Below are positions 12,101-57,600 of a DNA stretch of 64,000 nucleotides, one piece after another. The notes under the pieces were generated by a model. The model had not been told where the DNA came from, did not search any database, and saw only the letters and a program-made list of their open reading frames with translations. Made by a program: the position numbers and the translations under genes. How positions within the stretch are numbered: the first letter of the stretch is position 1; each line of letters starts with the position of its first letter. Origin of the DNA: Tribonema minus (Eukaryota > Sar > Xanthophyceae > Tribonematales > Tribonemataceae); the NCBI GenBank assembly GCA_017506865.1, contig JAFCMP010000060.1, forward strand, positions 124,001-188,000. Direction: 5' to 3'.

Positions 12101-13668
12101 CAGGGAGGTGCTGCCCGGTACGCGGACGTCCAGGCATGGGGCGTCACACATTGAAGCGACTCATCATCAACTCAGAGGACACTCCACTTCGTAAGTGCTC
12201 AGTAGCCGATCGACGTCTCGCGCTGCATGTGCGCATGAAGCGTCACTTTTTGCGCTGTTCACCTCAGAAGAACACTCCGCTCTTGAGGAGCCGCATGTTG
12301 TGCAGCTCTGACGACCGGTCTACCAGTCTTTGTGTGGGAGTTTCACATGACACTGGAGCGTCGAGTGGTGCAACCGCTCACCACAGTAAATGAAGTAACG
12401 CGTGTCATGCAGCTTTGACCAGTTGACGTTCGTGTTGAAGCGTCACATGATGTTGAGTTGATGCTCACCTCGGAGGACACTCCGCTCTTGAAGTGGCGCG
12501 TGTCGTGCAGCTCCGACCAGTCTATGTTGGTGTCTATCTGCTCAAACGCCTGCTCCCCGAGGTGCTCCTTGGCAGCGGCTTTGCTCCACCCCAGGTAACC
12601 CACCAAGTGGTTATACATGTGCTCCATCTTGTGGCCGAGATGCATCCCCGCCCGATCGTCCGTGCGCCGCAGCGAGATCGAATTCGCCTTGGGCCGCTGC
12701 TGCTGCTGCGCCTCCCCGCCATCGCCGCCGCCGCCCGCCGCCGCTGCTTCCGTCGCCGCCGCAGCGCCGTTGCTGTGGCCTGTCGGCTGCGCATCCGCTT
12801 GCGACGTAGGCGTCGATCGGGCACCGTCGGGCGTGCCCTCGCGCGAGCGCTGCGCATCGATTTTCCAGCCATGCTCGCGCTGTATTTTGAGCGTCTGTGG
12901 AAAGGGGGGGGGGGGCATGTGACATGTCGCGAGCACCCTGTCTGTGAGAGACAAAGCCCTGCGCGTTCACGCTATCTGGCTGCAGTTTTCGGCTTGCAGT
13001 ATAAACGAATGAGGGCAAGAACGGACATATGGAGGGACGTGTGCGTTGGGTAAGGTTCAGGATGTGTGTTTTTGTGCTGGACTAGACCTCAATTGTTGCA
13101 TGATTCACACCTGTGCTCGACGGCTATGTGTCTTCAGTGATTGCACGATGCACGTCATGGCGTCAAGGGCCATGGCCCCGGTGCAGGTAAACGTGACCCT
13201 CCGTGAACCAGATGCCGACCCAGCACACTTATCGCCGAAAATCGCCCTGCGCAGTCATGGCCGTGCTACCAAGAAGTGAATAATGCAAGACGGTGAAACG
13301 TGTTCGAACACTGCTTTTGAATGGTGCTGTGTTGCTGTAAGTAGTTACTTTACTGTCAACGGCGCTATACTGCCGAGAATTGCCGATGCTACGAACAAGC
13401 GCGCGAACCAGCCGTCCTTTTGGTTTGTAGCCAGTAGCAAAGCATCCGATGCAAAGCCGTAGCAGAGCATGGCACAATCTTCAACAGCAATGGTCTCGGA
13501 ACTCGTCATCTATTGGTTGCGCAAGCTTCAATGCGGCAGAGATACAGTAGCAGCGGGAGTGACCTTCACCTGCAAGTGTTCGTGCAAATCGTGACTGATG
13601 AACTCCTCGTCATCGTCAGTGCGTCTTAAAGAGATGGATGGGTCGCCATTCGTGTCGCCAGCAGACAT
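6956..13668 (-). CDS. TKL-type protein kinase, nine exons
   Basis: Nine exons join without a phase error: 13668-13570, 12894-12469, 11320-10922, 10174-10090, 9768-9720, 8897-8832, 8359-8300, 7824-7611, 7108-6956 (516 residues). Residues 1-165 are a non-catalytic leader in which SISLRRTDD occurs twice. The kinase domain follows. The glycine loop is degenerate (SGVSSEVFVAHW), with ATP-anchoring Lys about 189 (VVVK) and the C-helix Glu about 211. The catalytic loop is HRDIRPDN (Arg where most kinases have Lys), followed by LLDFGSAR, MRYLAPEV, DIYSLGMVMWEL and the C-lobe Arg in PRDRASVQEI. DIYSLGMVMWEL is typical of tyrosine-kinase-like (TKL/Raf-like) kinases. Catalytic Asp, metal-binding Asn and DFG are all present, so activity is likely. 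The C-lobe ends in a short tail after exon 9 rather than another domain. Substrate is unknown. Confidence 0.8.
8425..8750. repeat. Two-copy tandem repeat in a kinase intron
   Basis: Two diverged units, about 8425-8580 and 8600-8750, share blocks such as tggagcgctga, gatggcggcg, ccacaggagtt and tcgtccctacttgcaagct in the same order. The pair lies in the intron between kinase exons 6 and 7. Unit length is about 170 bp, and divergence is visible throughout, so it is not recent. Confidence 0.7.
9098..9140. repeat. CAG/CTG microsatellite
   Basis: About 14 uninterrupted cag units (ctg on the kinase strand) lie in the intron between kinase exons 5 and 6. Similar tracts occur at 46203-46235 (intron) and 59238-59262 (coding, polyglutamine). 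Confidence 0.9.
9769..9801 (-). repeat. Telomere-like repeat tract used as splice-acceptor tract
   Basis: On the kinase strand the intron ends with three CCCTAA-type units, then ccttaccctacccag directly before the DFG exon. The tract supplies both pyrimidines and several CTAAC sequences that fit a branch point. A similar tract at 27484-27511 is in another intron but not next to an acceptor. A degenerate one lies at 57046-57090. Confidence 0.75.
11491..11640 (-). repeat. Duplicated 5' edge of kinase exon 3
   Basis: The unit around the acceptor and first codons of exon 3 (11281-11430) is repeated upstream in the transcript. The copy encodes VAHWRGKRVVV against VAHWSGKRVVV in the real exon, and both are preceded by related G/C-run and ctcagcgcgtcagcg sequence. 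The copy then loses the reading frame, so it is read here as an intronic pseudo-exon. Confidence 0.7.
12150..12445 (-). repeat. Decayed copies of the 3' edge of kinase exon 2
   Basis: At least three segments, about 12155-12190, 12256-12335 and 12385-12440, resemble the last 75 bases of exon 2 and its donor at 12460-12535. Shared blocks include gaggacactcc, ccgctcttga and gtcgtgcagctc. They lie downstream of the true donor within the intron. Confidence 0.7.
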
Positions 13669-14039
13669 GGTGATCGTTGCGCTCTTATCCTTTCCCCGTC
13701 CCGCCTGCGCTCTCGTCTTGACTGGCAGCGGCAGGTTGTCGAGCGGAAATGCTGTGCAACAAAGCGATTGAAGATGCAGGCGCCGCTGGTGTTGAAGCCT
13801 TGTGTGCGCGTCGAGACGAAGTTCCGCGTCCTTCTTTTCCTCAGCAGCAACTGTAGCTGTCGTACGGTGCACTGCTGATGTGATCCGCACGGAAGCTCAC
13901 AGGTGAAGTTGGAACGTCACTACTGCAAACGTGAAATAGCAGTGCGAGGCAAGATGAGGGGGCTTGGTGACGTTCCTCACCAGCAGCACGTGGTCGGCAT
14001 GCTGCGAAGGAGGACGAACTGCCTGCTTGCACAGATACC
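13669..14039. promoter_or_regulatory. Divergent spacer, kinase and ankyrin genes
   Basis: The 371-bp spacer separates the kinase ATG (minus) from the ankyrin-gene ATG (plus). The kinase ATG has A at -3 (accATGt). No core promoter element is obvious. The call is positional. Confidence 0.3.
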
Positions 14040-21572: not shown

Positions 21573-24373
21573 ATGGCGTCGGTGTCCTTATATCAAACTC
21601 CTCCTCCACCCAGACCAGAGTCTCGCAGCAGTGCCAGGCGACCATTGACAGCCGGGTCCGGAGGCTATTTGCCAACCTACCCGAAGGAGTGGTCGCTCAC
21701 GAAGCAGACAATCTCAAAACATGCTGGAACTGTGCTGGAGCGGCGGGAGCGAGAGAGCGAGAAAGGAGATGAGCCGGTACGGTCATGCGGGTGTGCGTGG
21801 TTTGACAATACTCTGCAGCTCTTGCATCGGCTCATGCGTGCAGGCGACAGAGGCTGAAGTACAGGCCTCCTGTGCTCGCCGTCGGATATTCACAACCCCC
21901 ATGCATTGAGAGCAAAGGCCTGCATGACGTGTTGCGCTTCTTTCTGACGGGCGCATTGGAATCAGTTGCTGCCAACGGTTGGCGTAGACTAGGGCAAGCT
22001 GCTCACACTGCCCGTGTAATTCAGGCACAGACCCTCGCTCTGTGTTTAGCGGTGCGCGCCATTCGAGTTTGACTGCAAGTCGTCAATTGCGCTCATTTCG
22101 CACATCACTGGCTGTGTTGGCATGGATGCTCTCGCTAACGCGGGCGCGCGGGCGGCGACCCTCCGCGACAGCCAACACGCCGCTGCCCACGCTCACATGC
22201 ATGCGCAGCCGCCGCACCGTCCCCGCGCCGCTGACAGCACTAGCGAGTGCACCACCCCTAGAGAGTGCGCCACCCGGACAAGCATCATTTCCCTGACCAC
22301 CGCAAATCCACTGCAAAAACCGCTTCACGCCTCCGCACGCCACCCTACGCGCCCCATGCGCAGGCGGAGCTCACGGAGGACCAGCTCAACGACGCGCGCG
22401 CCGCGTTCGCGGGCGCGGACGCCGCGGCGGCGGGGCGCATCTCGCAGGCCGCCGCGCGCGCGGCGCTCGCGCGCCTCGGCCTGCAGCTGGACGACGCCCT
22501 GTTCGAGCGCCTCGCGCGCGCGCGCTGGGCGGAGTACGGGCGCGACGACGTCTCGTGCGAGGGCTTCGTGGCGCTGTTCGCGCTCGCCGCGGCGCCGTCG
22601 CGCAAGTACGGCGCGCAGCTGCGCAAGGCGGCGGGGCGCGGCGACGGTGAGGGCGCGCGGCGCACGCGCTGTTGTCGTTGCCGCCGCAGTTGGCGGCACG
22701 CGTGACATGTCAGGATGCTGTGAGGAGGGAACGGATGCGAGGGCGTTTACTTGCGATTGAACTTGAAGTACTTCTCGTACTTCTCGTTGAAGCTACAACG
22801 GCGGCCGCAACTCTCTCTCTCTGCTCTGCTGGTGCACTGAGAGGGATGGCTGAATGACATGCGGCAGGGGGGGGGGGAGTGCATGTTCACGGCTAAAAGC
22901 GGCGACGCCGCCAGCCTGCGGGCTGCAGTGGCTCTCCGCAGAGGTGCATGGTCAACAAGCACGTGAGCGCAGCGCTCGTGTAGCTCTTGCTGCCTGCATC
23001 GCCATCAGGCCGATGACGTGGACTGCATCCGTACAAACACAGCTGGCCAAGCTTGCACCAGGAGGAGCCACGCCCTTTACGCTCTCTCTACGCAGCCACA
23101 GCAGCAGTGCTCATCCACCCCTGGCGTCGCTACGCCCGCTGCCCACCTCTTACCCCGCCATTCCAATCACGCCCTCCGCCGCAGTGGCGGTCGTGCGCGA
23201 GCTGCTTATGCGCGGCTGCGGCGTCAACACGGCGGACGGCAACGGCATGCCGGCGCTGCAGCACGCCGCCGCGGCGGGCCTCGTCGACGTCGCCAAGCTG
23301 CTCAAGCAGTGCGCCGGCGCGGAGCTCGAGGTCAACACGGCGGACAACACGGGGTGGACGCCGCTGATGACAGGTGAGTGAGTCACTTGCTGTAGGTATT
23401 CGACTCATGACTCATGAGCGCTGCTCAAGCAGTGCTCAGGCGCGGAGCTCGAGGTGAACACCGTCACAACACGGGGTGGATGCAGCTCATGACGGGTGAG
23501 TGAGTGAGTCACTTTCTGCTGTACTCGTGTGAGCGGGTATTCGGCGTGGGTATTCGACTCACGAGTTATGAGCACTGCTCAAGCAGTGCTCAGGCGCGCA
23601 GCTCGAGGACGACACGGCGGACAACACGGGGTGGACGCCGCTCATGACGGGTGAGCGAGTCACTTGCCGCACTCGTGAGCAAGTATATGATTCATACATT
23701 TGTGTTCGACACGTGCATTCAGGGCAGAGGCGCAATGCGTGCCCATTTACCGCATGTGCCGAAGAATCTGTTTGCCGTGGCGGCGGCGGCAGCGGGCCCC
23801 ATGGGGTGCGTTGCGTGCGGCCACGGCATCGGTGCACGGCGGCATTCGTGCACCATTTAGACGCCCACGTGCACGCCAAGTCCCGTTGCGCCACCGCGCC
23901 GAAGCGAGTGCCTGCACCCATGAATCGTAGTCTGCTCGCTGAGGGTCCCACAGCGCTGAGCACTGCTGCCCCCCTCCCCCTCCCTCCATCTTACAACGCG
24001 CGCAGCGTCCGCCCACGGCCACGCCGTGTTCGTGCGCTGGCTGCTCGACGCGGGCGCCGACGCGCGCGCCGCCTCGCGCGCTGGCCGCACCGCGCTCCAC
24101 GCCGCCGCCTCCAAGGGCCGCGACGCCGTCGTGCGCCTGCTGCTGGCGGCGGGCGCCGCCGCGGACGCGCGCGACGCCGCCGGCTGCGCGCCGCTGCACC
24201 TCGCGGCGCTGCACGCGCACGTCGGCGCCGCGCGCGCGCTGCTGGAGGGCGGCGCGGACGGCGGCGCGGTGGACGCGCTCGGCCGCGGCGCCGCCGACTA
24301 CCTCGGCCCGCAGGCATGGCGGCGGCTGCAGGACGAGCGCGGCGGCAATGCGTCGTGGACGCGGCGGAAGTAG
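21573..24373 (+). CDS. EF-hand and ankyrin-repeat protein
   Basis: Exons 22364-22646, 23185-23373 and 24006-24373 join cleanly. The first exon, 21573-21776 (phase 0, gagccg|gtacgg), is less certain. Together they give 347 residues. After a polar leader (MASVSLYQTPPPP...), residues about 70-140 resemble an EF-hand pair in spacing (LTEDQLNDARAAFAGAD, then RISQAAARAALARLGL and VSCEGFVALFALAA), but the loops lack a full set of calcium-binding acidic residues. Four to five ankyrin repeats follow: GRGDVAVVRELLMRGCGVNT, GMPALQHAAAAGLVDVAKLL, TGWTPLMTASAHGHAVFVRW, RTALHAAASKGRDAVVRLLL and CAPLHLAALHAHVGAARALL. Each exon join falls inside a repeat and restores its consensus, which supports the splicing. 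Ankyrin repeats bind partner proteins; no enzyme domain is present. Intron 3 contains two further copies of the exon-3 end. Confidence 0.72.
23424..23695 (+). repeat. Two tandem copies of an ankyrin exon end plus its splice donor
   Basis: The last 75 bases of exon 3 and about 50 bases of intron (unit from about 23298) are repeated at about 23424-23574 and 23575-23695. Each copy keeps ctgctcaagcagtg, aacacggggtgga and a gtgag donor followed by gagtcact. The third copy still reads as an ankyrin half-repeat (LLKQCSGAQLEDDTADNTGW), while the middle one is out of frame. All three donors are GT. Confidence 0.85.
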
Positions 24374-24560: not shown

Positions 24561-24618
24561 GCTGCTGCTGCCTCGCGGTCGCCATTTGCGTGTCTTGTCT
24601 GTTGTGGTGTTTCGAGCT

Positions 24619-25598: not shown

Positions 25599-28500
25599 CT
25601 ATATCTCTATGTACATGTCCGGCAACCGCTCGCACGCATCGCCGTCGGCGCTCGCAGTGCTGCCGCTGCTGCCGGCGCCAACCGCACTGCCCCCTTCTGC
25701 ACCATCCGCACTAGCCACCGCCATCAAGCTGCCGTAGCTGATATTGCTAGCACTGCCCGCACGCGCGGGCCATTCGCCGCCGCTGCCGCCGCCGCTTTCT
25801 TGCCAGCCGCTGCTGCTGCTGCTGCTGCCGCCGCTGCCGCTGCCGCCCCCGCCCGCAGGAGCGTTGGCGCGCCGCTGCAGCAGGCCGCGCATGGCGGCGC
25901 CCGCGCGCTCGCCGGCGCTGCGCGCGCGCTCCGCCGCGCTCGCGCGCCAGGACGGCGGCGACGGCGGCGACGGCGGCTGCGCCGCGGCGCGCAGGTACGC
26001 CGCCATGGACGCGCGCACGGCGAACGCGTACGCGTGCGCGTCGTCAGCGCCATCGGCGAGCTTGGCGATCGGCGCGTCGTCCCACTTGACGGAGCCGTCT
26101 GCACGGACCGGCAGGTGCACTGACAATTAGACTCAATAATGATGACCGTTGGTGTCCACTGCTGCCAAGCACGCGCAGCGCGACGCGACGCGAATGCGCC
26201 AGTCATGGAATTTCGTTTTTGCACATGCAACAGTGCGCGACACCAGCAGACATGACCGGCGACGGGCACGCCGTCCCACTTGACTGGACCCGTCTGCGCG
26301 GGCGGCGGCACGCGCGAGTGCGGCAGGGCGGCGCGCGCGTGTGTGTGAGTCATGCGTCTTGCGCGCTGCGCTGCGGCGCCGCGCGCTTGCTGCTCTGCCT
26401 TGTGGCAATCTCCCGGACCGTTGCAGATCGGCCTCGTGCGTGAGCGAGGGTGTCGGTCAGCGTCAAGGCTAGGAGTAGGGTTGCAATCACCGCGCCAGAC
26501 TTGTTACGAGACTTGCCTATGTGGGACTGGTGGGTGTTACCACACACTTCAAGTATACACTGCAGCGGATCAAGGAGACATGGCCGCACAGCAGACGCAG
26601 TGCAATGACCGACCGTCGCACGCGGTGCGGCGATCGGCGCTGCCACTGCCGCCGGCTGACCAAAGGCGCGCGGGCGGGCCGCGCGCTTCGAACGCGCCAG
26701 CGGCGCAGTACGCGCAAGCGCTTGGACCACGACACGTTGCTGCCATCGTATCAGTGTCTGTCTGCAACAACAAAGCAGAGCGCGCTCACATGCTCCGCCG
26801 CCGCCGCCGCCGCAATCGCTTCCGCCCTCCACGAGCAGCCCGTGACGCTCCGCGCAGTCCCCCTCCCCCTCCTCAGCGCTCCCGCAGTCACAGTCGCTGC
26901 TGTGCGCGGCGCTGGAGCCGCCGCTGCTGGCGCGGATGCGCGCGGCGGCACGTGCCGCGCGCCGACCGCCGCGCCACGCCGCCGCCGACGCGGACGCGAG
27001 CAGCACCGGCACGCCCAGCGGCAGGCTGTAGGCCTGCGCGACGGTGAGGCCCTTGCGGCGCCGGCGCCGCTCGCTGCTGATGCTGCGGCGATTGGGGGAG
27101 GGGGGAGGGGGGGGAGGGGGCATAGAGGCATGTGTCAGTGCTCTGCGGTGGCGGCGGCACCAGCAGCTGCGGCCGCAGCGGCGTGGCTGCACCTGGCATT
27201 GGCGTTTTGTACAAGCCGCGTCATAGCTGCTCCCTGCCAAACTGCGGATGGCGCTGCTGACGCTGCAGGTGCCCATCCCAGTTGGCGTCAAGGGGGCATG
27301 CTCACAGACGTTGACGAACTTCAAGAAGCTGAGAAAGGTTTGTTGTGTTTCTGATGGGGTCGCGGTCGCCTAGGGCTTGGCGTCTGCTTTGCGAAAGGGC
27401 CGTCTTGACGTGGTGCAGACCTCCATTTTGGTTGAAACCGTAGAGCGTCTCGCTCCCTGCCGTTCTGAAGCGCGTGCGCTAACCCCAACCGTAACCCTAA
27501 CCCTAACCCTAAGCACGCATATACTTCTGGCCCAGTTTTGATATGGTGAGTCTTGCATGACACCGGCTCCTGCGCGCGCCTCACCAGAGTCGCGCTGCGG
27601 CAGAGGAACGCGCTGCAATAATGGTTTTTGGCCTGACTCCAATGCTGTCAGTCATGAATCACGACGCATCCCCGTTGCGCGTCCGCACACTGCATCGACA
27701 TGCCCGCCTTCGACTGCTCACCAGATGGCGCTGCAAAAGAGGAAGGTGCTGCTGAAGGCCATTCATGATATTGGCTCAACCTTGAATCTTCGAAGTATGC
27801 TGAGTCATGCACGACACAGGCTCCTGCGAGCGTGCAGCACGGCCTCGCCGAAATGCCCTGCGGGCGACGCGCGCGCGTGGTGCCGAACACTGCGCCCACC
27901 GGATGGCACTGCAGACGACGAAAATGCTGCTGAACACCATTCATCACACTCTGATATGATGAGTCATGCATGACACAGGCTCCTTGCGCGCGCCTCACCA
28001 GATGGCGCTGCAGAAGAGGAACGTGCTGCTGAAGACCATCATGCCCAGTATCGCCTCCCACGCCCAGTCGTCCGTGCACGTGTCCACGCGGCCGCACGCG
28101 CTCGTGCACGACACGCCGTCCGCGCGCACCGCCGTCTCGTTGTACAGCCACGCCGCCATGACGCACGTGCCCTGGACGGCTGCGCGCAGGGGGACAGGGG
28201 GGGGGCGCAGCGGCGGCGGCGGCAGCGGCGGTGAGGTGCCGTGCGAGTCCGAGCATGCCGCGGGCGGTGTTGATAGGGTCGCTAGCAATGGGGTGCAGGC
28301 GCTCCGTGCTCCCTTGCGCAGTGGAATCACAGCACAAGATCAGCAGATGATGCTGGCGCCCGGCGAGATGCAGCGAGCGCGCTCAGATTCAGGGGCAGCT
28401 TGCACTCATGAGCTCATAGCATGTAGCATGCACTTGTCACTGAATGTCAAAGTTCTTCACGCGCCATCTCACATTCACAGGCATCTTGCACTATTAAGCT

Positions 28501-29586: not shown

Positions 29587-31977
29587 TCAGGGGTAGCTCC
29601 TGAACAATCTGCGGGCAGCCATTGGGGTCCCTGGCCATACCTCTATGTGGAGCGAATTGCCATTGCCTGCCCTCCCGCGCTCCCAGCCTGGCCTCGGCGT
29701 CACGCGCCACGGACCCACCGCAAACCTCCTGAGCAGCAGCTGCAGCTTGCCCTGCGTGTCCGGCAGCGCCGTGAGCCGCTCGCAATGGCTCAGGTCGAGG
29801 AAAGTCAGCGCGCCCAGGTCGCACAACGTGTCTGGCAGGCGCGCGAGCTGCTTGCAGCCAGTCGCATCGAGCTCTTCCAGCGCCGTGAGCCCGCCTATGG
29901 CGTCCGGCAGGCTGACAAGCCGCTCGCACCAACTGATGTCGAGCTGCAGCAGCGCCGACAGAGCGCCGATCGTGTCCGGCAAGCTTGTGAGGCGTCGGCA
30001 AGCGCTGACGTCAAGCGACGTCAAGGAAACCAGGCTCCCCACGGCGTCAGGCAGCGTGGCCAGCTGCTCGAAGCTGCGGAGATTGAGGGAGGTCAGCGCC
30101 GTAAGGCTGGCAATGCTGTCCGGCAGGCGCGTCAGTGCTCTGCAATTGCCTGCATGAAGGCACTTGAGCGCCTGCAAGGTGCCGACTGCATCCGGCAGGT
30201 GCGCGAGCCGTGCACAGCCGCTGATGTTGAGAGATGTCAGCGCCGCCAGCTGGCCGATGGTATCGGGCAGCCGCTGCAGCTGCTCGGACCCCTCCATGTC
30301 GAGCGCCGTCAGAGCCGCCAGCGCATCGATGCTGTCTGGCAGGCACGTCAGCGCTCTGCAGTCGCGCAGCGTGAGCGTCTGTAGCTTCGTGAGGCTGTTG
30401 AGGCCGTCCGGCAAGTGAGAGAGCCGCTGGCACCCGCGCAGGGTCAGCTCCGTGAGCGCTGCTGCCACCTTGCCGCACATGTCTGGTAGCCCTGTAAGCT
30501 GCGCGCAGAAGCTCAAGTTGAGCACTGTCAGTGCTGCGAGATCGCTGATGCCGTCTGGCAACAGAGTCAGCGATGTGCAGTCGCTCAAGTCGAGCTGACC
30601 CAAGGCGTGCAGTTGACCGAATGTGACCGGGAGAGTTGTGAGTGTCTTGCTGGCGTCGAGCCTCAGCGTCGTCAGCGCAGCTAGGTCGCAGATGCTGTCC
30701 GGCAGGCTTGCGCAGGGCACGTTGTACAACCTCAGCGTCTGCAGTGCTGTCAAGCGGACAATGCAGTCTGGTAGGCTGGTGAAAAAGGAGCAGCACAGTT
30801 CAAGCCTGGTGAGTGCTGCCAACTCGCCAAACCGCTTTGGCAGCTGGTCTAGAAAGATGGTGCTCCTCGCATCGAGTATTTGCAGTCGCGCCAGGTTGCC
30901 GATGCTCTCAGGCAGGGACCTCAAGAGTGCGCCGCCTATGTCAAGCTCTGTCAGCGCTGCCAGACCACCGAAGCAATCCGGCAGAGCCTTAAAGTGCGTG
31001 TCGCCCAAGTTGAGGCTCGTCAGCTGCGCCAGGTCGCAGATGCTGTCCGGCGAGCTGGTCAGCCCATGGCAAGAGCCGATGCTGAGCGCTGTGAGCGCCG
31101 ACAGATCGCCGACCGAATCCGGCAAGCTCCTGAGCTCACTACAGCTGCATAAGTTGAGCACAGTGAGCGCGGACAGGTTGCCAATGGTGCTCGGCAGCCA
31201 TCTCAGCTTTGAGGCCATGCTCAGGTCCAATTCAGTGAGTGCTACAAACGCGGCGATGCTGTCCGGCAGCACCGTCATGTATGTCCATACTGAGAGCGAA
31301 TGGACCAGCATCAGCGCGTCCTCTTGAATGCCAGCATCCGTGCCGCGGCGGAGCAGTGACTGCAGCAGCGGCAGGTCACGACTGGGATCGCTCGACGCCA
31401 CGCGCACTTCCTTGCAGTTGCGCGGTATGCGGCTGAGCGGCCCGCGGTAATAGTACAAGGTGATGACACCGACGTCTGTGTACATGTCTTCGAATGCGTC
31501 GGTGGCACCTCGCTGTGTTGCTGCAGGGCCGAGACTCAGCGCTAGAAGGGGGTCGATCTCGAAGGTCCCGCTGAGCCGCAGCCGGACGACATGCTTGCTG
31601 AAGAACGCGCGAGCAGCTGCTTCCGGCGGCCAGGGCCCCAGCAGTCCCATGTGTACAGACGGACGCACCTGACGATGCAGTGACTTGCACAGATCCCAGG
31701 CACTCTTGGGAAGATTGCGACCCTGCGCCAGCACGGCGAACACCTGGACGAGTGTGTCCAGCTCCGCTGTCGGGCGCTTCCGGGCCTCTACACCCGGGCG
31801 CATCGCTGAGGCAGCAGCAGCGCCTTCGCTGCCACCTGCAACTGCAAAGGTGCAACCTGCTGCAGCTCTCCCGCCGCCACCCCGCAGCTCGTCAGACTTG
31901 CCTTCGTCTGCAGCCTCGCCACGCGCTCCAGCGGCTCCGGTGCACCCTGATTCCTCCTCTGTGTGAAATTTGCGCAT
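29587..31977 (-). CDS. Intronless leucine-rich-repeat protein
   Basis: A single 796-residue exon starts at ATG 31977. Residues 1-75 are low-complexity, and 75-240 are a globular region with no domain I recognise. Residues about 240-745 hold about 20 leucine-rich repeats of 23-24 residues of the form LPDSIGxLxALTxLxLxxC, for example LPDSIDALAALTALDMEG and LPDTIGALSALLQLDI. The repeat type (LPDS/LPDT start, C at the end) is that of plant resistance-protein-like and stramenopile LRR proteins. There is no signal peptide, transmembrane segment, NB-ARC or kinase domain, so an intracellular protein-binding role is most likely. Absence of introns in a 2.4-kb gene contrasts with its spliced neighbours and may reflect retroposition or repeat-driven growth. 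A homogeneous repeat array makes the exact repeat count prone to change. Confidence 0.8.
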   Translation of the reverse strand: MRKFHTEEESGCTGAAGARGEAADEGKSDELRGGGGRAAAGCTFAVAGGSEGAAAASAMRPGVEARKRPTAELDTLVQVFAVLAQGRNLPKSAWDLCKSLHRQVRPSVHMGLLGPWPPEAAARAFFSKHVVRLRLSGTFEIDPLLALSLGPAATQRGATDAFEDMYTDVGVITLYYYRGPLSRIPRNCKEVRVASSDPSRDLPLLQSLLRRGTDAGIQEDALMLVHSLSVWTYMTVLPDSIAAFVALTELDLSMASKLRWLPSTIGNLSALTVLNLCSCSELRSLPDSVGDLSALTALSIGSCHGLTSSPDSICDLAQLTSLNLGDTHFKALPDCFGGLAALTELDIGGALLRSLPESIGNLARLQILDARSTIFLDQLPKRFGELAALTRLELCCSFFTSLPDCIVRLTALQTLRLYNVPCASLPDSICDLAALTTLRLDASKTLTTLPVTFGQLHALGQLDLSDCTSLTLLPDGISDLAALTVLNLSFCAQLTGLPDMCGKVAAALTELTLRGCQRLSHLPDGLNSLTKLQTLTLRDCRALTCLPDSIDALAALTALDMEGSEQLQRLPDTIGQLAALTSLNISGCARLAHLPDAVGTLQALKCLHAGNCRALTRLPDSIASLTALTSLNLRSFEQLATLPDAVGSLVSLTSLDVSACRRLTSLPDTIGALSALLQLDISWCERLVSLPDAIGGLTALEELDATGCKQLARLPDTLCDLGALTFLDLSHCERLTALPDTQGKLQLLLRRFAVGPWRVTPRPGWERGRAGNGNSLHIEVWPGTPMAARRLFRSYP

Positions 31978-33679: not shown

Positions 33680-34366
33680 GTGAAAGTGGCTGGTGCCGTC
33701 ATCTTGGAGATGAGTACTAACGTAAAGGCGCACGACACCATTGTCCACAATAGCGTCAAGAGGGCCACGCAGCGCCTCCTGCGGCAATACCTCAAAAGGG
33801 GACTGGTGGACGAGGACTACACGCCATTTCTGGGGTCCGCCGGGCCGCCGGGGAGTCGCAGGATGGACATCGTGCTGCCTGCCGACGCCTTCCCGGTGAC
33901 CGGCTACGACGACCCGACACGCCACCTACCGCTCATGGTGGACGTTACCTGCTTCGAGGCACAGGTGGCGTCGCGGGCGGCGAAGACTGCAGCAGACCCC
34001 GAGCGATGCTGCCGCGACCAAGAGGCCGCCAAGACTACCCACTATTCTGGTCATTGTGATCAGAATTGCTACAAACTTGCCACTTTGGCAATAGGGTCAT
34101 TTGGCAGCATCGGGGAGCAGGGGCGGAAGCTGCTGGAGCCTGTGGCGACGGAGTATGCCAGCAGGATGTCAGTGCCCGGAGGAGCGCGCCCTAAAGCTCT
34201 CAAGGGCATCGCCCTGGCGCGCTTACGCTCGGCACTGTCGGCAGCGCTCCACATGGCGTACTCTGGCCGTGTCATGACACACATGGCAGAATCCAGGGGG
34301 GGGGGGCACATGGAGGAGGACGTAGGGGAGGACCCCGAGATGCCATTTGGCGGCGGCGGCGTTTGA
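33680..34366 (+). mobile_element. C-terminal part of a non-LTR retrotransposon-like ORF (nuclease-like domain)
   Basis: An open frame of about 228 residues (first ATG at 33710) resembles the region after the reverse transcriptase in many protist LINE-like ORFs. It has SRRMDIVLP, PLMVDVTCFEAQ, a Lys-rich KTTHYSG and the block LAIGSFGSIGEQGRKLL, then ALARLRSALSAALHMAYSGR. The D...VDVT...K pattern fits a PD-(D/E)XK (restriction-like endonuclease) fold. No reverse transcriptase is visible upstream, so the copy is 5'-truncated, as LINE insertions usually are. Downstream come two copies of actaacgtacccagga (34477-34508) and T/A-rich runs (34533-34580) that could be 3' UTR or tail sequence. A domesticated host gene is the alternative, since the frame is intact. 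Confidence 0.5.
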
Positions 34367-41078: not shown

Positions 41079-44001
41079 CTAGTACCGCAACCAGTACGAG
41101 CGGCGCCTGATCCAGTTGTAGTCCGGCAGCTCGAAGATGGGGCCCACGGCGGCGAGCGCGTGGTCCTGGCAGGGGTTTTGAGGGGGGGGACGGGGGGGGA
41201 AGGGGGGGGGGGGGTATATGGGTGAGGGGAGTGGATGGGGGGCGCAGAGCGCTGCTGCGGTGCAGGGCTCACCACGCTTTTGAACTGCCGTCAAGACGCA
41301 CTTAAAGGAGGCAAAATTGGAAGGGGCTTGACACATGTGCCTGCGTTGCAGGAGCCAACCACCATGGTGTTTGGGGGGTTGGCTTGCCGCGGATGGTGAT
41401 GGGTACAGGAACGTGAATGAAGCCATCCTGCTGGTACTCGGTCGTACGGTACTGACTGCGAAAACTGATGGATGGTGCGCTACTCACAATTCGTGCGAGC
41501 AACTGACATGTGTGCATGGGGTGGCGACCTAGGTACTGCGCAACTGCCGCATTGCCACTAAGCTATTCCATGCACAGCTGAGGCTCTGCGAGGTATGCAC
41601 TAATGATGATCTGATGATCATCGGCTGTTGAGCACCCCCTTGCCGTCTGGAGTGTTTCAACAATGCACTGACAATGCATACTTCTACTTCAGTTGTATCT
41701 GTGCAGTGCACAGACAGGCACGTGTTGATGTTCTCACAAGCTCAGAGGACGCAAATCGTGCAACAGTGAGCTGCTTCGCCTTGCCACGGGCGCTGACCGC
41801 ACCGAATCCCACATTGTTGTGGCCTGCTGAAAAAAGACTTGAGGGAAATGCGATTGGCGCCCCACGTTCGGCAGCCAACCAGCCTCTGGCACCACTACAC
41901 GTGCGGCACCCAGAGAAAGTAATACCACTGCGAGGCGCTCTGGCCACATTGCGGCGGTGGAGAGCGTCGCTCAATGGTGAAAACTGTTAGCCCACATAAA
42001 TATAAAGTCTTGCGCATGCCGCTGAAAGGCAGCATCGTGCCAGCCCCGCGCAATCAACTGGCGCTTTCAAGGGCGCTGCGCCGATGCGCACACACATGCT
42101 CCGTATCCGCCCCCCCACTCCCTCCCTCCCCGCCGCCCCCCCCCCGCCCCACCCCCCGAAGACACGATGCATAGAAAACAAACACGTGAACAAACGTGCC
42201 ATGGGCTGCTGCGCGTCCCGCGCCACCGCGACGCCGCAGCACGACGCCACGCCACGCACCTGGTCGTTGACAAACTCGTTGACCGTGTCGCGCACGTCGC
42301 CCGTGGTTAGCGCGTCGAGGCGCGCAAAGAGCCCCCGCTCCCCCCCCCCTCCCCCCCCCCCGCGCGCCCGCCCAAACATACAATGTACACATAACAAACT
42401 TGCAAACCAACGTCCATGTGCGCCTGCGCCCCGCGCCGCCGCCGCGGCGCGACGCCCCGCACCTGATCGTTGACGAACTCGTTGACGGTGTTGCGCACGT
42501 CGCTCGTGGACAGCGCGTCGAGGCGCGCAAAGAGCTCCGTGGCGTGCACCCTGCGCCCGACCGACAGGACCTGGCGCGTGATGTCGTCGCACGCGCCCGC
42601 GGGCGCCGCCGTCGCGAGCATGAGCTGCGTCTTGAGCGCTGTCTTGCCGCGCGCCACCTGGAGGGTGCGGGGGGTTGGGGAGGGGCGGGCGGGGAGGGGG
42701 GGAGTCAGAGCCGTGCTGCTGGCATCTCTAGTGCTGCAGATGGTGTCTGCGAGTGCGTTGCATGCAGCAAGAGCGTCTGCGCAGCGCTGCTGGCATCTCA
42801 GCTGCAGCAGATGAGTCCAACCAGCGCTGCCGGCATCTCTCATGCTGCTGGAGAGTCAAACTAGTGCTGCTGGCATCACTAGCAGGGGGAGGCAAGGGGG
42901 CGGCGCCAGTGAGGTGCCGCGGCGAGCGTCGTGGGGTGCAGCTTGATGGAAACAGTACTCACTTGTGGCATTCTAGTGGTGATATATTGCAGGCCAGAGA
43001 GCGCGCTGGCAAACGCGCTCCACGCCGCTGCATGCCTGGTGCTGCCGCGCTGAGAACGGCGCCGCGCGCTGTGCGCAGGCCGCGGGCGCTGTTGGTGGGT
43101 CATGGCAGCTGGCGCGCGCCGCGTTCAATTGCACCGGCTCACCTGTCCGCACACTTGCCAGTGTGTCGCGCCATCGTCGTCGCCTCATCATGCGCGACCG
43201 CGGCGCGCCAATGCAGCCCCCAGCCCAAATAAACAACACTGGAGAATGTTGGAGCATATGGCTGCTACATGCTCATTGCGCTTGACGGACAACACACTTG
43301 CCAGTGCAAGACTGGACCACATCCAGCAGCACACGACTGGCATCGGTCTCATGTCGCGTTGGTCGCGTCGATGCCCACCTCTGGCGGCGTGCAGCAGCAG
43401 GCCAGTGCGCAGCAACAGCTCCCCGCGCTGCATCGCGCGGTGAACTGAACGACCTACCGGAACGAGCTCTTCAACCCATCGACGCCATCACCAACACGCA
43501 CGCAAAGCACGCACGCAAAGCCGTACGCAGCCGCCGCCTCACCTCCTCGTCCGTGACCTTGTGGCACATGCGCACGAGCGCCTCGAGCGTGAACCACATG
43601 AAGTTGTCGAGCCCGACGTCCGGCGCGGTGCCCGTCACCACCAGCAGCCCCGTGTCCCGGTACGCGATCGTCGAGACCTCCGCCTTGTACGCGGCGTTGT
43701 TCTCGGCGTTGGCCAGCGCCCAGCGCGTGCCGACGTCGGTGCCGATGCCGCTCGTCCTGTCCCACGAGCCCATGGTCGCAGCCGCGAGCTGCAGCGGCAG
43801 GGCGTACTCGGAGGTCGCCGCGGGGCCCTTGAAGGCCAGCGCAACCCTCGCCAGCGGCTTGTTGTCGAAGCTGTGGGGCGCCGGGGGGGGGGGGAGGCGG
43901 GGTAAGAGGCCTGGACGCATTGGAAGATATGTGGTAGCGGCAGGGCGCACTCTGAGGTCGCCGCAGCAGCAGCAGCTGCAGCAGTAGCAGCAGCGCCGCC
44001 C

Positions 44002-46200: not shown

Positions 46201-46238
<38 letters not shown>

Positions 46239-47653: not shown

Positions 47654-47839
47654 GATGAGCTGCAGCTGAAGCACGAGCTCCAAAGTGTACACAGCACCCA
47701 ATACATACCCATCAGAGTTGAAGTTGGAAGTTCACTTCGCTTCATATCTCCCAGCTGAGGAACTGGCGCATGCGATACCGACGTGGAGTTGATGCGGCAT
47801 AGCCGACCTCCAACATGCCGTAGCCGAACTACCCTCTGT

Positions 47840-48640: not shown

Positions 48641-48719
48641 TGGGAATTCCTTCTCGCCGCACTGTGAGACGCTGCAGTACGCACTGCTGTTTTTTCGTGG
48701 CAGCAGCGGATATGCGAAG

Positions 48720-50811: not shown

Positions 50812-53611
50812 TCAGATGCTGATGTCGGCGTCAGACTCCTCTTCGTCGTCGCAGGAGAGGTCAATGTCCATGGTGGCGACGGCGCCGAACTGCTTGGATG
50901 TGAACTTGCTCCGGACGGCCCTGGCGTGCACAAAGAAAAGATTGCAGAGGCACCGCCGAGGTCAGTCAGAGAGACGACGACTGCGGTGACTGCAGGAGTT
51001 GTTTACGATCATGGTCTGGGTGCGTGCGTCCTTGTGACTGTGCCGCGGCAGCAGCAGCCGGTTGTGACAGCGTGCTGGCCATCAAGGCGCCTGTAATTCA
51101 TCGCCCGCCGCTGCTGCTGCGGCGGGCAGTCCCCGCGGTAACGACGCGGCGCACCACTGTGAGCAACCGCCGCCGCGCGCGCTGCTTGACCGACTGAAGT
51201 AATATCTACTCGTCCGCGAGGCGCAGTGCCGCCTACGCGACTGCACATTCATCGCCGCAGCGCGCGCGCGCGCCCTTGCCGGGCCCCGCAACGCGCCCAG
51301 CGCGCTTTGAAAATTGGCGAGCGTCATGGAGGCGCGTGCAGCGGCGCGCGCACGCAGCGTCGTCGCCTGCGCAAGCACAAGCACCGTCCGCGCACGGCGA
51401 GCAGCGGCGCAAGCGCGATGCAACAACGCTCAACACCAAGCCTCACCCAGAGGTGACCTCTGTTTGACTCCCAGTGCGCGGCAGCGCGCGCGGTCAATAG
51501 CAGCGGCCGGCACACACTGCGCGCGCTACTCACTGCATCAAGTCACGACCTACCGCTGACATACGGCGCATCGCGCCGCTGCGCCGCTCGGCGCGCACGG
51601 TCAATGACAGCAGCGCTCCACCACCTACACGCACACGGCGCACGCGCGCGCGCGCACGACAACTCAAGACTCGCGACTCACTTGAGGTCGCCGCACGCCG
51701 CCATGAGCTCGCACGTGTCGTGCAGGCACGCGCGGCGAGCTACGAGACGACACTCATGACTCGCGACTCACTCAAGGTCGACGACACTCACGACTCGCGA
51801 CTCACTTGAGGTCGCCGCACGCGGCCATGAGCTCGCACGTGTCGCGCAGGCACGAGGCCAGGTCCGCCTCGACGTAGCCCGTGTACTTCTCCAGCGTGGG
51901 CGACCACGCGTTGCGGCCGAGGTTGCGCCGCGCGAGGTAGATGGCCGCGCACGCCGCGACGGACGGCAGGTGGCGCAGCATGCGCGCCTCCTGCAGCATG
52001 CGCTCCGCGACGTAGCACGAGAGCTGCACGATGCGGCTGCGGCAGTGGGGGGGCGAAGGAATGAGCGGTGAGGGGGGTTGACACAAGCTGCTAGTAGTTG
52101 GGAGATGAATTGTAATTATTGTAGAAATAATGAAATGAACCAGGTGGCGCAGCTTGCGCTCCGCGACGTAGCACGAGAGCGGCTGCGGCGGCGGGGGGCG
52201 GGGGAACGAGAAGAGGGGTTGACACAAGCTACTGGTAGTCGGGAATGAATGTTTATGGATACATTTATGAAGAGGAAATCGTGGATAAAGAATAATCAGC
52301 CAGCGCCAGCCAGTCGCAGCGATGCATCATGTGCCCTCTGCACGGCCCGCGCCTAGCAGCGCGCGCGCCTCTAGCGGCGCGCGCTGTTCGACATCAAATC
52401 GCGCAGGGGCATTGGCAGGCAGTGTCGCTTGAGTACTCACGCGCGAGGCGCAACGGCGCGCCGATCGCGCACATTCTGCCGGCGGCGCTGCCTGTCAAAT
52501 CTGCCACTACAGGCGGCCCCGCCCCGGCACGGCAGCAGCAGCAGCGCGCCGCGCGCCGCGCGTCCCTCAACCACCAAACAAAAATACGGTGCTCACCTGG
52601 CCGCGAAGCCAAGAAAAAAATACGTCACTCATCGGTCCGCAACAAGTACACGTCAGTCACCGGGCCACGGAACCAAGAACACAAGTAAATCAAACACGTT
52701 ACTCACCGGTCTGCGTGCGCCGCCTTGAGGTAGCGCAGCAGGAAGCAGTACGTCGTCGGCACGGTGATGCGGAACTCGAGGCGGTTGAGCATCTCCGTCT
52801 CCATGTCCAGGATCTGCTCCTTGGTGTACGCCTTGTCCGTCATGTAGACGAGGTCGCGGATCTCGGGGGGGTAGATCTCCTCGTACTTGGACGCGAGCAG
52901 CAGCGCCGTGACGCCGACGAGCTGCAGGTTGCTGCGCGTGACGGCGGGCGTGAGCGCGAGGTAGCGCGCGATGACGTACACCGTGAGGTACAGCGTGTCG
53001 GGGACGAGGCGGAAGCGCAGGTGCACCTCCACGAGCCAGTCCACAAGGATCGCGAACATGCGCGCGCTGACGTGCTCCTGGTCCTCTATCGCCGCGGGCG
53101 ACAGGCGCGTCACCTGCTCCTGCGCGCGCAGGTACGAGTACAGATCCTCCACGTACTCCGTCACCGCCAGGGGCTCCTTCCTGTCCCGCTCGTCGATGTC
53201 GTTGGCGGAACGCGCGGACGGCACCACTGCGCCCCCCGAGGACGGGCCTGCTGCTGCGGCCTGGGACGCCCCGGCTCTGGCAGCTGAGGCCTTCGCAGCC
53301 CCTGCGGAACCCGCCTGCTGCTGTGCCGCCGCCGCAGCAGGCTTGGATGCAACCGCCGCACTCGAGTGAGGCGCCTGCTGCTGAGCATTCTCTGAGGAGG
53401 AGGACGAGCGTGCCTCTCGGCTCTTGCTGCGTGTGGCATAGACCTTCGTGGGGTGCCCAGACTGCTTGCCCCCGCCGTTGTTCTGCTTGTGCACATCGTT
53501 GGTTATATCCCCAAGTGCGGCCCTCCTGGGAGCTGCAGCCTTGCCGCCTGCCTGGGCTGCGGGCATGTCGGTCGAGTTAGTGTTCTGGCTGGCCCTCCTC
53601 TGGTTTAGCAT
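50812..53611 (-). CDS. CCNB: B-type (mitotic) cyclin
   Basis: Three exons, 53611-52707, 52036-51806 and 50920-50812, join in phase to 414 residues. The N-terminus has a destruction box, RRAALGDITN (29-38), matching RxALGDIxN, followed by a KR/Ser/Ala-rich disordered region. The cyclin box starts near 150: EYVEDLYSYL, RMFAILVDWLVEVHLRF (MRAILVDW signature), LVGVTALLLASKYEEIYPPE, then YTKEQILDMETEMLNRLEF. Exon 2 supplies the second cyclin fold (SCYVAERMLQEARMLRHLPS, AACAAIYLARRNLG). Exon 3 adds AVRSKFTSKQFGAVATM and an acidic end. Such cyclins activate CDK1 at G2/M and are destroyed by APC/C through the D-box. Intron 2 carries duplicated copies of exon-2 donor sequence and intron 1 a copy of its acceptor edge. 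No defect is visible in the protein. Confidence 0.9.
51680..51782 (-). repeat. Copies of the 3' edge of cyclin exon 2
   Basis: Segment 51680-51730 repeats the exon-2 end and donor (actcacttgaggtcgccgca, then catgagctcgcacgtgtcg). A second, shorter copy at about 51760-51780 keeps only the donor edge. Both lie downstream of the real donor at 51806, and gactcgcgactca links the units. Confidence 0.85.
52133..52245 (-). repeat. Copy of the 5' edge of cyclin exon 2
   Basis: The block gcgctccgcgacgtagcacg and the following G-rich and ttgacacaagct sequence occur both at the real acceptor (52008-52095) and here, about 125 bases upstream in the transcript. The copy encodes SCYVAERKLR against SCYVAERMLQ. 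Confidence 0.85.
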
Positions 53612-54650
53612 GGTGTGTGCTTCGGTGGCCTACTGCACCTTGCCGTGCCAGAATTGTGCAGCTGCTCGTGAGTGCCAGTTGTCGTTTGCGTGCTTGTCTG
53701 GCCAAAGAGGTCACTAGCGGCGCTGCTGGTCACTGCTACCGCACTCTGATGCTGCGATACCGTGGCCGCTGCTTGCACACACCCCAGGCTCCTTGTTGTG
53801 TGCTGTATTCGTGCAGTGTGCTGTACGTGAGAGTGCCTGTTTTTGACCAGCGCGACCTAATGCATCAACGGCGTCTTTTTTTTTGACGCGCATACCTACA
53901 GTACGATCTGAAGGCTTTGAGATTTCTGGCACATGCATATGGGTATGTGTCGTGCAAACAGATTTGTCAGCAGCAGATATACTCTTTATTTGTTGAGACT
54001 ACAACATGGTCTTCCAACGTGTGCGGCACCTCATTCAGCTGGTCCCTCCGTCAAACGCTGATTGACTGCAAGAGCAGTTGTTCACTGGTCTAATGTTGCG
54101 TTGTTGAGCATATGGAGTGCTGAAAGCAACATCACATACAGCTGCTCAATATGCAAACGCACAGCACTCTACAAGCAGGCCTGCATGTTGACCGCAATGA
54201 TGGCTACTTGGACAGGAACATGAATCAATGAAGAGAAATGCCCATGATCTGAAGTGTGTAGCGTTGCCCACATGTGTTGGCGAATTTTGTGCATGTGCGG
54301 CACGGTCACAGAGCACATGAGCAATCGATATGCCAAAGGCAGCAGCAACTTGCAGATCGTTGCATTGAAACGCTGTGACTGTTGTCAGGACACATGCGCT
54401 AATGCATGCCACTACCATGTGTCGCCAAATAAATGCAAGTGACAGTGACAGTACATACATGAAGTGCTGATCAGGCAAAGCGCACAGCGATTGACGTGTC
54501 CGCGACGACGGCGTTGCAGAACACAACTTCCATTTCATGACCAGCACAGCAACATCTAAACCCATGGCGAGTGCACCAGCGCTCAATAGGCACGCGCACA
54601 GCAGCTCCGCACGCAGCCACACAACAGCCCCACACGCGCACAAGCACAAT
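53612..54650. other. Intergenic region
   Basis: The flanking genes are both on the minus strand. The stretch is AT-leaning around 53900-54470 and holds no exon I can support. Cyclin regulatory sequence should lie at 53612 upward. Confidence 0.4.
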
Positions 54651-57600
54651 CTAAAACTCGCTGCCGCCGCTGCTGCCGCCGTCATCATCGCTCAGCAGCA
54701 GCGCGGCGACGCGCGCGGCGCGCGCGCCAGCCGCCGTGCGCGGCGCGAACGGGCACGCCGCCGCCGCCGCCGCCGCCGCCGCGCGCCGCCGCGCCGCCCA
54801 CTTGACGCGCGCCTCCGCGCCGCTGAGGCGGAACGGCTGCACGAGCGTGAGGCCGTCGCTGCCGCGCCGCTGCGCGCCGGGGCGCACGGCGAACGCCGCG
54901 GCGGCGCGCGCATCCGCGGCGGCGGCGGCGCGGCGCGCGGCGTCGCACAGCTCGAGGTGGCGCCCGAGGCCGCGCACGAGGATGGGGCCGGACGTTGGGG
55001 GCGGCGGCGTGGGGAGCGTGGGGGCGAAGGTGCACGCCTGCATCTCGGCGACCTGGTGGGGGGGGGGAATGCGCAGGGGGGGCAAAAGGGGGGGAGGGGG
55101 CAGGGGGGAGGTCAGCGAGCGCCGCGCCTGGCAAGATCTGCGCAGCGATGGGGTGAGGGGCCTAATACTTGGTGGTGGTACAAAGCACAATGAGGTGCCC
55201 GCAGCGATGCATGGCGCAAAGGTGCAACTAAGATGCGGCACTGTGGGAAGGCGGTGGGGAGTGGGAGATGGGGGGTGAGGGGGTCATTCGAACGGACGAA
55301 AGGGCAATACAGCTCTGCGCCTCATGCCTGACAGGCCCGCACGCAAGCCCGCAATCTCAAGAGGCGGGAGGGGGCATCGCAACGTGTTGCACAAAGTGGA
55401 CGGCATGAAACAGCGACGGCGGCGCACAATCAGATTGCGTGCAAGAACCGCATCACGCCGCATCACACACAGAGCGTCGCGCGCGTGCGAACGTGACAGC
55501 AGCAGCGCACCTCCCGCTCCGCCTGCGCCGTCGCCAGCCGCGCGGCGCGCTCCTCCGCCTTGTCGCGGATCCCCTGCGCGATGCGCCACGGCTCGCGCAC
55601 CGGCAGCCGGTACTTGTTGTCGGCGCCATACATGTCCGGCCGCGCGTGCCCCCCCCCGCTCCCGCCGCCCCCATCCCCCCCCCCCCCGTCTCCCTGCTCC
55701 CCCCCCCCCCCTCCCCCCGCCGCCGCCCCCGCGCGCGCGCCGCGCCTGTGCCTGCTGCTGCTGCTGCGCCGCCTCCGCCACCAGCGCCGGCCTGAATGTG
55801 AAGGCGGCGGCGGCTTCCGCGGCGCGCCGCTCGCGCCGCGCGCGCGCGCCGCGGCGTCCGGCGACGGTGCCCCGCCTGCTGCCGCCGCTGCTGCTGCCGC
55901 CGCCGCAAGCGCCCTGCTGATGGGGTTGATGTCGGGGGTGAAGGCGTGCTGGCTGGCGGCCTCGGCCTGGCGGCGCGCCGCGGCGGCGCGGCGGCGTTCC
56001 GCCTGCGACGCGGAGTTGCAGCCCGTGAGAGACAATAGGTGAGGGCCGGAGCGGCGGGAGACCCCGGAGGGGCGCGGTGTACGGGGCGCATCAGGAGATT
56101 TGTGAACCGGCGGCGCCCGCAAGACAGCGCTGCGGGGCCTTGATACGTTTCGGGTTGAGCAGGTCCGGCGGTGCGCGAGTGCCGGCACTGAGCTTGCGAC
56201 GAACCCAGACCCAGAGGCGCCCCGGTCACATTCATCCGCTCACCTCCGCGCCCATCCTGCGCCCCCATCTGTTTGTCCGCACGGTGTGCAGCACAGCACC
56301 AGCGCAGTACAGAGAGCGCCACCGCGACCTTCCCGATCACGATCCCTCCCTGCGCCCGCCGGCCAGCCAGCAGCTGCGCCACCACATAACACGCACGCGC
56401 ACGCGCACGCCACAGCGGCAGCAGCAGCAGCAGCGGCAGCGGCGGCGCTCACCTCTACCAGCGCCATGCGCGTGCAGCGCTGCTCCGGCGTCTCGCGCGC
56501 GCGCTCCGGCATGCGCCGCCGCACGAGCGCGTCCGAGCGCGGCGCCGTCGCCGGCGTGAACCACGCCGCCTCGCGCTCGCGCTCGCAGCGCAGCCGCGCC
56601 GCGCCGCGCTGCCGGCTGCGCGCCTCCAGCGCCGCCTGCGGAGGCGGCGGCGGCGCGTGCGCGCACACGTATGTGATGAGGGTGGGCGGCTGATAGAGCA
56701 GCGCGCATACGCGGCGCCGCGTACGGTGAAATGCTGCGGAGGACGCTGTGCACTGCCGGCACGCAGCGGCGGCTGCGCGCTTCAAGCGCTGCGCGGAAGG
56801 CGATGGCGCCTGGTGCGTTAATCTGCATAGAATGCCAAGGAAGGCTGGCACAAGGCGGAGTCGTCAGCGCAGAGGTGAGCAGCCCAGGCCTGTGCGGGCA
56901 TGTACATCACACAGTGCATGATTCTATCTACCTCACACACCTGCTCTCTGTACCTGTGCAGAGCACGCAGCCTTTGAAGGCGGTTAAGCCCCCAGGGCAG
57001 CGCTCGCACGCCGGCTCTGCGCACACATACGTTCACCTCACTTCACCACCTAAACCTATCCCTAAGTAGCCCTAAATGTAACCCTACCTACATGTGTACC
57101 TTCCACGCGCACCGGCACATCCGCCAGCTAACGCATGTCTCAGCGAAAGCCCCAACTCTGTTTCACTGCGACACCGCTCGTCATCATGTACTTCAAGTAC
57201 CTGACGCTCCTCAAACCGCGTGCGCAGCACGGCGGCATCTGCCGTGCTCGCGCTTCAATCGTGCTCTTTCCTCTAGTTCAAGTACCTGACGCTCCTCAAA
57301 CGGCGCGCGCAGCTCGCGCCGCCGCCGCACCAGCCGCTGCGTGCCAGCGCTGAGCTCCGGCGTGAACGTGTTCTCCGCCGCGGCCTCCGCCGCGGCGGCG
57401 GCGGCCGCTGCCTCCGCGCGCTCGCGCGCCTCCGCTGCCTCGCGCGCCAGCCGCTCACCGGGGTTTTCTGCACAACATACAAGAGCAGCAGGGTCGTCAG
57501 AGGCGATGTCTCCGTGTCCAAGTCTTACGGGACAGGGACATTGAGGAGCGATCTGCGCGGAGTGCGGCGGCGCGCGCGGCGCAGGCGATTCCGCAGCAGC

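Follow-up and report, generated by a model that had tools for sequence, protein, structure and literature searches.

Introns of Tribonema minus (Xanthophyceae) contain many partial copies of the edges of their neighbouring exons, and these copies carry the splice site with them. Copies of an exon tail and its donor lie downstream of the exon, and copies of an exon head and its acceptor lie upstream. An earlier note described this in gene after gene of a 64 kb stretch (contig JAFCMP010000060.1, positions 124,001 to 188,000), referred to here in its entirety as the window. The pattern is real and extends beyond the window to the 314 kb sampled here. Among 106 local copies of exon sequence in noncoding DNA, 77 reached a splice edge and lay on that edge's own side, compared to 31.4 ± 5.9 when the annotation was shifted, and 77 was reached in none of 300 shifts. 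These copies probably arose as short local duplications, most likely through the repair of staggered breaks, with those that straddled a splice edge or lay within introns being spliced out and left to decay and those that damaged exons being lost.

Sample, gene models and repeat censuses

The material analysed was the window, from a contig of 368,076 bases, and 25 further stretches of this genome, each 10 kb long. The total of 314 kb is 0.2 % of the 158 Mb assembly (554 contigs), and the 25 stretches were placed on contigs by hand, so that they are spread but non-random. Exon edges were taken from our own ab initio gene finder, which gave 269 donors and 270 acceptors (539 edges) and divided the 314 kb into 78.4 kb of coding sequence, 124.6 kb of intron and 111.0 kb of intergenic DNA. 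These edges are predictions except in three genes that were compared with database proteins. A gene finder without minimum lengths collapsed into one-base introns and was dropped.

Local repeats were counted twice. The first census, a BLAST self-comparison of the 314 kb, yielded 196 raw local repeats of ≥40 bits, with 0 in shuffled sequence, and 166 non-redundant local pairs. As this census had overlooked strong pairs, including a near-perfect copy of 99 bases or more in the DDX18 gene, a second was made using our own seed-and-extend search. The second census found 375 non-redundant local pairs (0 in locally shuffled sequence), recovering 143 of the 166 first-census pairs and adding 144 that BLAST lacked, and the main counts are based on it. 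Profiles of 24-mers and simulations were combined because each single measure is biased, and they disagree on whether duplication is aimed at exon edges. Introns of <120 or >1500 nt were excluded from the 24-mer profiles and those of >800 nt from the counts of events. The 'exon self' row of the profiles (643 of 5682), which lacks a control for composition, was left aside. The simulations presuppose that each intron underwent a single duplication and that decay is simple, and unit lengths for the profile simulations (edge/interior ratios) were drawn from the first census.

Copies at splice edges exceed chance

The 77 own-side edge copies (51 donor, 26 acceptor) fall on 30 + 16 distinct edges, that is 46 of the 539. 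A further 13 exon-to-noncoding copies reach an edge but lie on the opposite side, and 16 are interior to the exon; all three other classes of exon-to-noncoding copy were below their shifted-annotation means. The statement in the earlier note that copies 'almost always' respect the edge and its side was worded somewhat strongly. The first census gave 40 own-side edge copies out of 64, compared to 15.0 ± 3.9 with shifted annotation. The figure of 106 excludes 73 pairs that are partly coding on both sides and 57 coding-coding pairs, and many of these are protein repeats or copies that the gene model called exons. The surplus of donors, seen in pairs (51 and 26), in distinct edges (30 and 16) and in short introns (15 and 12), may stem from the order in which the two splice sites are encountered.

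When all second-census pairs are classified, those spanning a coding edge with a noncoding copy numbered 77 (54.7 ± 8.4 with shifted annotation) and those partly coding on both sides 73 (31.1 ± 6.8), while there were 29 wholly coding versus noncoding pairs (54.4 ± 8.9) and 139 noncoding-noncoding pairs (204.7 ± 14.6). Equal copying of exon interiors, named in the earlier note as the outcome that would undo the pattern, was not what we found, as the share of exon bases that are copied drops from 13.1 % at 0–20 nt from the edge to 0.7 % beyond 250 nt.

Exon-derived 24-mers were present in 77 of 203 introns, and in 19 of 202 after introns were swapped. The figure of 77 is the one that is like-for-like with this control, and it becomes 79 of 203 when edge-straddling 24-mers are included. 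Introns with an exon-derived 24-mer are longer (median 502 versus 321, P=0.0016), partly because long introns give more chances of a match. At least 17 of 48 predicted multi-exon genes had an own-side edge copy in the first census. Duplication load varies strongly between genes, and loci L023, L024, L025 and L029 have many predicted edges and few or no copies.

Copies are skipped in three database proteins and change as noncoding DNA

In all three genes compared with T. minus database proteins (P0001, P0121 and P0241), the copies are skipped. The database proteins are themselves predicted models, and the end of P0121 resembles a run-on into other sequence. The database cyclin P0001 agrees with the window sequence at each of its first 287 residues, the gene finder and the database protein agree on the start of exon 1, and copies are found at two of the four edges of this gene. 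The DDX18/HAS1 gene (locus L017, protein P0241) has local copies reaching six of its 12 splice edges, and a seventh copy ends 34 nt short. In one of these copies all 33 of the 33 residues encoded remain identical, others are decayed, one of them with a stop codon, and P0241 uses none of the copies. By eye, the Ectocarpus DDX18 protein P0244 has no repeat at the copy sites. In the isoaspartyl dipeptidase gene (locus L022), copies are found at two of ten edges. As L017 and L022 were picked for their copies, the share of edges with copies in these three genes cannot be taken as a rate for the genome.

Mismatches in the 77 edge copies amount to 104/976 at the first codon position, 83/973 at the second and 149/971 at the third, and in 40 gapped alignments from the first census 39 of 46 gaps were not multiples of three. 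The spread of mismatches over codon positions and the frame-breaking gaps indicate that the copies change in the manner of noncoding DNA. The higher count at the third position is consistent with silent change in the exon. Tandem exon duplication, in which a whole exon is repeated in frame in the mRNA, was rejected, as the copies are partial, contain frame-breaking gaps and are skipped in the three database proteins.

It is improbable that the copies are functional and are kept by selection as alternative donors or acceptors. Among copies with an ungapped alignment over the site, 42 of 45 donor copies retained their GT and 19 of 23 acceptor copies their AG, although such counts are favoured by the need for the alignment to cross the site. 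In the first census, GT was retained in 24 of the 26 donor copies (of 30) with both bases readable. The higher retention of splice dinucleotides in the second census slightly raises the odds that copies are used. However, codon positions 1 and 2 change at 9–11 %, most gaps break the frame and the database proteins, whatever the RNA basis of these models, skip the copies.

Origin of the copies

Under the explanation we favour, staggered DNA breaks in genes would be filled in and re-joined, sometimes with filler, to give short local duplications, often in small arrays. A duplication lying wholly within an exon would usually harm the protein and be lost. In the case of a duplication that straddles a splice edge, the original site would stay, and the cell could continue to use the upstream donor or the downstream acceptor. 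The extra copy would land in the intron, be spliced out and decay, and, with the exon conserved, it would stay recognizable. As an edge-straddling unit contains the edge, its copy carries the edge without any need for the duplicating process to sense splice sites, provided that exon-internal units are lost, and respect for the edge would thus be largely a consequence of selection. The earlier note had offered selection that tolerates only spliceable duplications as one possible cause. This fits the noncoding evolution of the copies, their absence from the three database proteins and the fact that a straddling unit must copy the edge, but purging inside exons is a step that we infer, and the count of coding-coding pairs given below does not favour it.

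Some properties of the repeats would be expected of local tandem duplication. In the first census, 29 of 51 edge-spanning pairs were adjacent or had a spacer homologous to the flank, when about 2 of the 43 gapped ones would be so by chance, and 39 of 55 noncoding pairs had the same tandem layout. The 375 local pairs, including the 77 own-side edge copies, conform to duplication within genes, with a segment lying near its source in one gene. Across 21 of the 26 loci, rates of copying at exon edges and in intron interiors are correlated (Spearman 0.54, P=0.012), and the fall-off of copies into the exon has the shape of a simulated tandem model. Introner elements were considered and rejected, as intron 24-mers match other introns at 0–0.6 % and their own intron at 1.5–12.7 %.

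Staggered-break repair appears to be the best-fitting origin of the duplications, and interstitial telomeric tracts, which are known to be left behind by break repair, bear on it. The telomere repeat of the assembly is CCCTAA, and one contig opens with a long array of it. In the 314 kb, there are 35 telomere-like sites, 24 in introns, 11 intergenic and none in a predicted exon, and each of nine hexamer classes of the same composition has 0 or 1 site. Genome-wide, an exact 24-mer of four telomere repeats can be placed 3991 times in forward and 3071 times in reverse orientation, telomeres included. Within loci, ten of 34 telomere-like sites were in duplication spans of ≤300 nt in the second census (5.5 expected, P=0.021), and nine of 33 in the first (3.4 expected, P=0.0036). 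The pooled first-census result (11 of 35 sites, 1.8 expected, P=0.000001) ignores differences between loci. At locus L021, a telomeric tract is located between an exon edge and its copy. The link of telomeric tracts to duplication spans is only suggestive, and was weakened by the second census.

A number of observations weigh against local duplication by break repair followed by selection. Tandem structure is lacking in 22 of the 51 edge-spanning pairs, and offsets are long (median 269), both in the first census. The intron parts of donor copies are short, with a median of 16 nt in the first census, when 31–71 nt was simulated, and of 14 nt in the second, and locus L022 holds an exon copy of 98.75 % identity, yet the intron heads diverge after about 5 nt. 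The telomeric excess was not significant for spans of 450 and 600 nt (P=0.10 and 0.15 in the second census, 0.085 and 0.16 in the first), nor was a per-intron link between telomeric tracts and edge copies (9 of 77 versus 7 of 126, odds ratio 2.25, P=0.18). Coding-coding pairs, which should be fewer than expected if exon-internal duplications are lost, were more numerous in the second census (57 versus 30.2 ± 6.8 with shifted annotation). These include protein repeats, some of them leucine-rich, simple-sequence coding regions and copies modelled as exons, and the surplus indicates that repeats within coding sequence are common in this genome. Finally, too few events are confined to introns for most of the ages tried. 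In complete introns of ≤800 nt, 12 of 39 events were intron-only, compared to 56–65 % under uniform duplication when ages are spread evenly up to 0.3 or form a wave at 0.13, and in the three database-checked genes, two of them picked for their copies, the figure was four of 14, compared to 70–81 % predicted. Uniform duplication with a wave at 0.20 predicts 34–43 % intron-only events and is not rejected (P=0.08–0.40).

Is duplication aimed at exon edges?

The shortage of intron-only events would be explained if breakage linked to splicing or transcription, for example by polymerase pausing or R-loops, made exon-intron junctions hot spots and edge copies several times commoner than intron-only ones. 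We regard this as unlikely, though distinctly less so than functional use of the copies. One argument for it is the count of events, with 15 donor and 12 acceptor edges set against 12 independent intron-only clusters in introns of ≤800 nt, a share that simulations without aiming and with recent ages seldom produce (P=0.00002–0.0013). Similarly, ten of 26 edges in the three genes with database models have copies, and there are four intron-only clusters, one of which (L017 2605–2852) sits where exon-head copies occur. Interior repeats make up 3.2 % of introns without an edge copy (intergenic DNA 3.75 %) and 8.6 % of those with one, even outside exon-derived stretches. At donors, copying of the exon edge is 1.63 (1.16–2.14) times that of the intron interior, compared to 0.7–1.2 simulated without aiming (even ages, or a wave at 0.13), and the short intron parts of donor copies also point this way.

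However, the positional profile leans against aiming. In the 30 nt of intron closest to an edge, coverage is 0.69 (0.45–0.93) of that in the interior. This resembles most settings without aiming and is lower than the point values with aiming, which start at 0.93 (30 % aimed duplications give 0.93–1.32). Exon-masked coverage in the BLAST-based data is alike near and far from edges, and edge and interior copy rates covary across loci. Moreover, unaimed duplication in a wave at 0.20 reproduces the event shares, and single ages of 0.15–0.20 give edge ratios of 1.2–6.2. Arrays built on an edge copy may raise the interior count and so hide an edge preference. Early ratios of edge to intron-only events, 22 : 3 and 11 : 1, were too high because BLAST had overlooked pairs, and they have been superseded. 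Thus, of the second cause raised in the earlier note, a duplication process tied to splice sites, the event counts lean toward it unless the duplications are old, and the profile leans away. Should junctions be break hot spots, repair of staggered nicks made during splicing or transcription would duplicate the splice site together with the edge of its exon, in some cases adding filler by telomerase. Introns would then grow from the edge inward through dead splice-site copies, a course of events to which we give limited credence. As the second census found pairs that BLAST had missed, the odds of edge aiming and those of the favoured explanation were both lowered.

A further possibility is that the introns themselves were born by tandem duplication of exon segments bearing AGGT, which is a known mechanism of intron gain (PMC4974935). 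Locus L012 (8254–8900) has this exact form in the ab initio prediction, with tandem units and a predicted intron that begins at the first GT and ends with the AG belonging to the second copy. However, in the other cases read, the copy of the exon tail is followed by intron-like sequence and not by the next exon or an acceptor, as gain of an intron from AGGT would require, and this origin of the introns is very improbable.

Copies in the named genes of the window

The positions of exons and copies in the window are listed in Table 1. Donor-side copies were present in all six genes in which they had been described, namely the kinase, ankyrin, membrane-protein, M16 peptidase (bc1 core), cyclin and CTF-x-P genes. 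Acceptor-side copies, described for four, were found in the kinase, membrane-protein and cyclin genes; one in the CTF-x-P gene was absent from the BLAST list and was not sought in the second census. The ankyrin gene had also been described as encoding an EF-hand, but its Pfam hits at E 0.001, ankyrin among them, include no EF-hand.

Table 1. Exons, splice-edge copies and telomere-like tracts (coordinates are window positions unless a locus is named)
Feature	Position	Strand	Basis or remark
Kinase-gene exon, head and acceptor copied upstream	10922..11320	-	Gene model; Pfam PF00069 in predicted protein
Kinase acceptor-side copy, decayed, AG lost	11492..11548	-	Repeat census
Kinase-gene exon, tail and 5' splice site copied downstream	12469..12894	-	Gene model, census
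Kinase donor-side copy, 48/56 exon bases identical, GT kept	12256..12322	-	Census
Ankyrin-gene exon, end ACAG/GTGAGT (exon/intron)	23068..23373	+	Gene model; ankyrin Pfam hits
Ankyrin, tandem copy 1 of exon tail and donor	23420..23505	+	Census
Ankyrin, tandem copy 2 of exon tail and donor, 91 % identical to 23298–23390	23575..23667	+	
Membrane-protein-gene exon, source of downstream array	27999..28179	-	Gene model, census
Membrane protein, three donor-side copies (27892–27940, 27717–27767, 27539–27616)	27539..27940	-	
Membrane-protein-gene exon, source of acceptor-side copy	25599..26098	-	Gene model
Membrane protein, upstream acceptor-side copy	26258..26301	-	Called exon by gene model
M16 peptidase (bc1 core) exon, end ATCAG/GTGCGG (exon/intron)	42463..42657	-	Edge by eye; model extends to 42408
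M16 donor-side copy, 88 % identical	42242..42335	-	
Cyclin exon, copies at both ends	51806..52036	-	Gene model, database protein
Cyclin donor-side copy, 94.7 % identical	51656..51730	-	Skipped in P0001
Cyclin acceptor-side copy, 77 % identical	52149..52250	-	Skipped in P0001
CTF-x-P gene exon	57286..57467	-	Gene model, census
CTF-x-P donor-side copy, 90.7 % identical	57189..57231	-	
Interstitial CCCTAA/TTAGGG tracts	9781 and 27492; L010, L012, L014, L017, L021, L022, L024, L026, L027, L031; intergenic sites		

By eye, the kinase gene has a weaker copy between the donor-side copy and its exon, and the intron heads of the copies in the membrane-protein array are partly alike. In the M16 gene, PF05193 was found in the exon adjoining the one listed, and the intron stretches that come next (42122–42197 and 42338–42413) are 72 % identical. 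Identities of 88 % in the exon part and 72 % in the intron part are as expected of a tandem unit drifting on one or both sides. Downstream of the donor of cyclin exon 1 (52590–52707), the donor region is repeated about three times in degenerate form, as seen by eye.

Two other features of the window concern proteins. The coding sequence at 29600–31300 is repetitive, with units of about 72 nt that we read as leucine-rich and that no family search matched; this is a protein repeat, a distinct phenomenon. The proteins predicted at 33710–34366 and at L030 7693–9330, on different contigs, look nearly identical along the greater part of the shorter protein when compared by eye, and this is possibly a mobile-element gene.

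Significance and relation to known systems

The lengthening of introns usually cannot be read because the sequence decays, but here the conserved exon is a fixed reference for each copy, so that one genome is enough to detect duplications, locate them and estimate their rough age. After subtraction of the swapped control, such a mark is present in nearly 30 % of the introns studied. If duplication is indeed aimed at edges, DNA breakage and gene structure would both be tied to splicing or transcription.

The earlier note knew of no prior description of the pattern, and in the open-access literature searched (introns, duplications, break repair, telomeric repeats, Tribonema) we found no description of dense intronic splice-edge copies. 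However, duplication inside genes has been described before, as have repeats created by breaks in new introns, and while the density of copies and the fact that they bear splice sites appear new, the kinds of duplication are not.

The closest work is that of Gao and Lynch (2009), cited in PMC4974935 and PMC4202315, which reportedly concerns the same kind of duplication of short segments within genes. The Tribonema copies differ in being partial copies of exons with the splice site, located in introns, in dense arrays and apparently unused.

Other systems share single features with Tribonema. Direct repeats in 55 of 90 Daphnia neointrons were read as scars of break repair and proposed to lengthen introns (Li et al. 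2014, PMC4202315). Those shared with the adjacent exon are 4–12 bp, whereas the Tribonema copies are mostly tens of nucleotides and include the splice site, and the Daphnia introns are new, which is not known of those in Tribonema. In mammalian cells, small tandem duplications arise via fill-in at protruding break ends (PMC8355091); short tandem duplications are a common feature, but there they occur in mammalian cells after induced breaks. In the horse, telomeric inserts with a direct duplication of the flank, found at a few loci, were read as products of staggered-break repair (PMC7215372). Tribonema likewise has telomeric inserts but, unlike in the horse, its tracts are in introns, some of them beside copies of exon edges.

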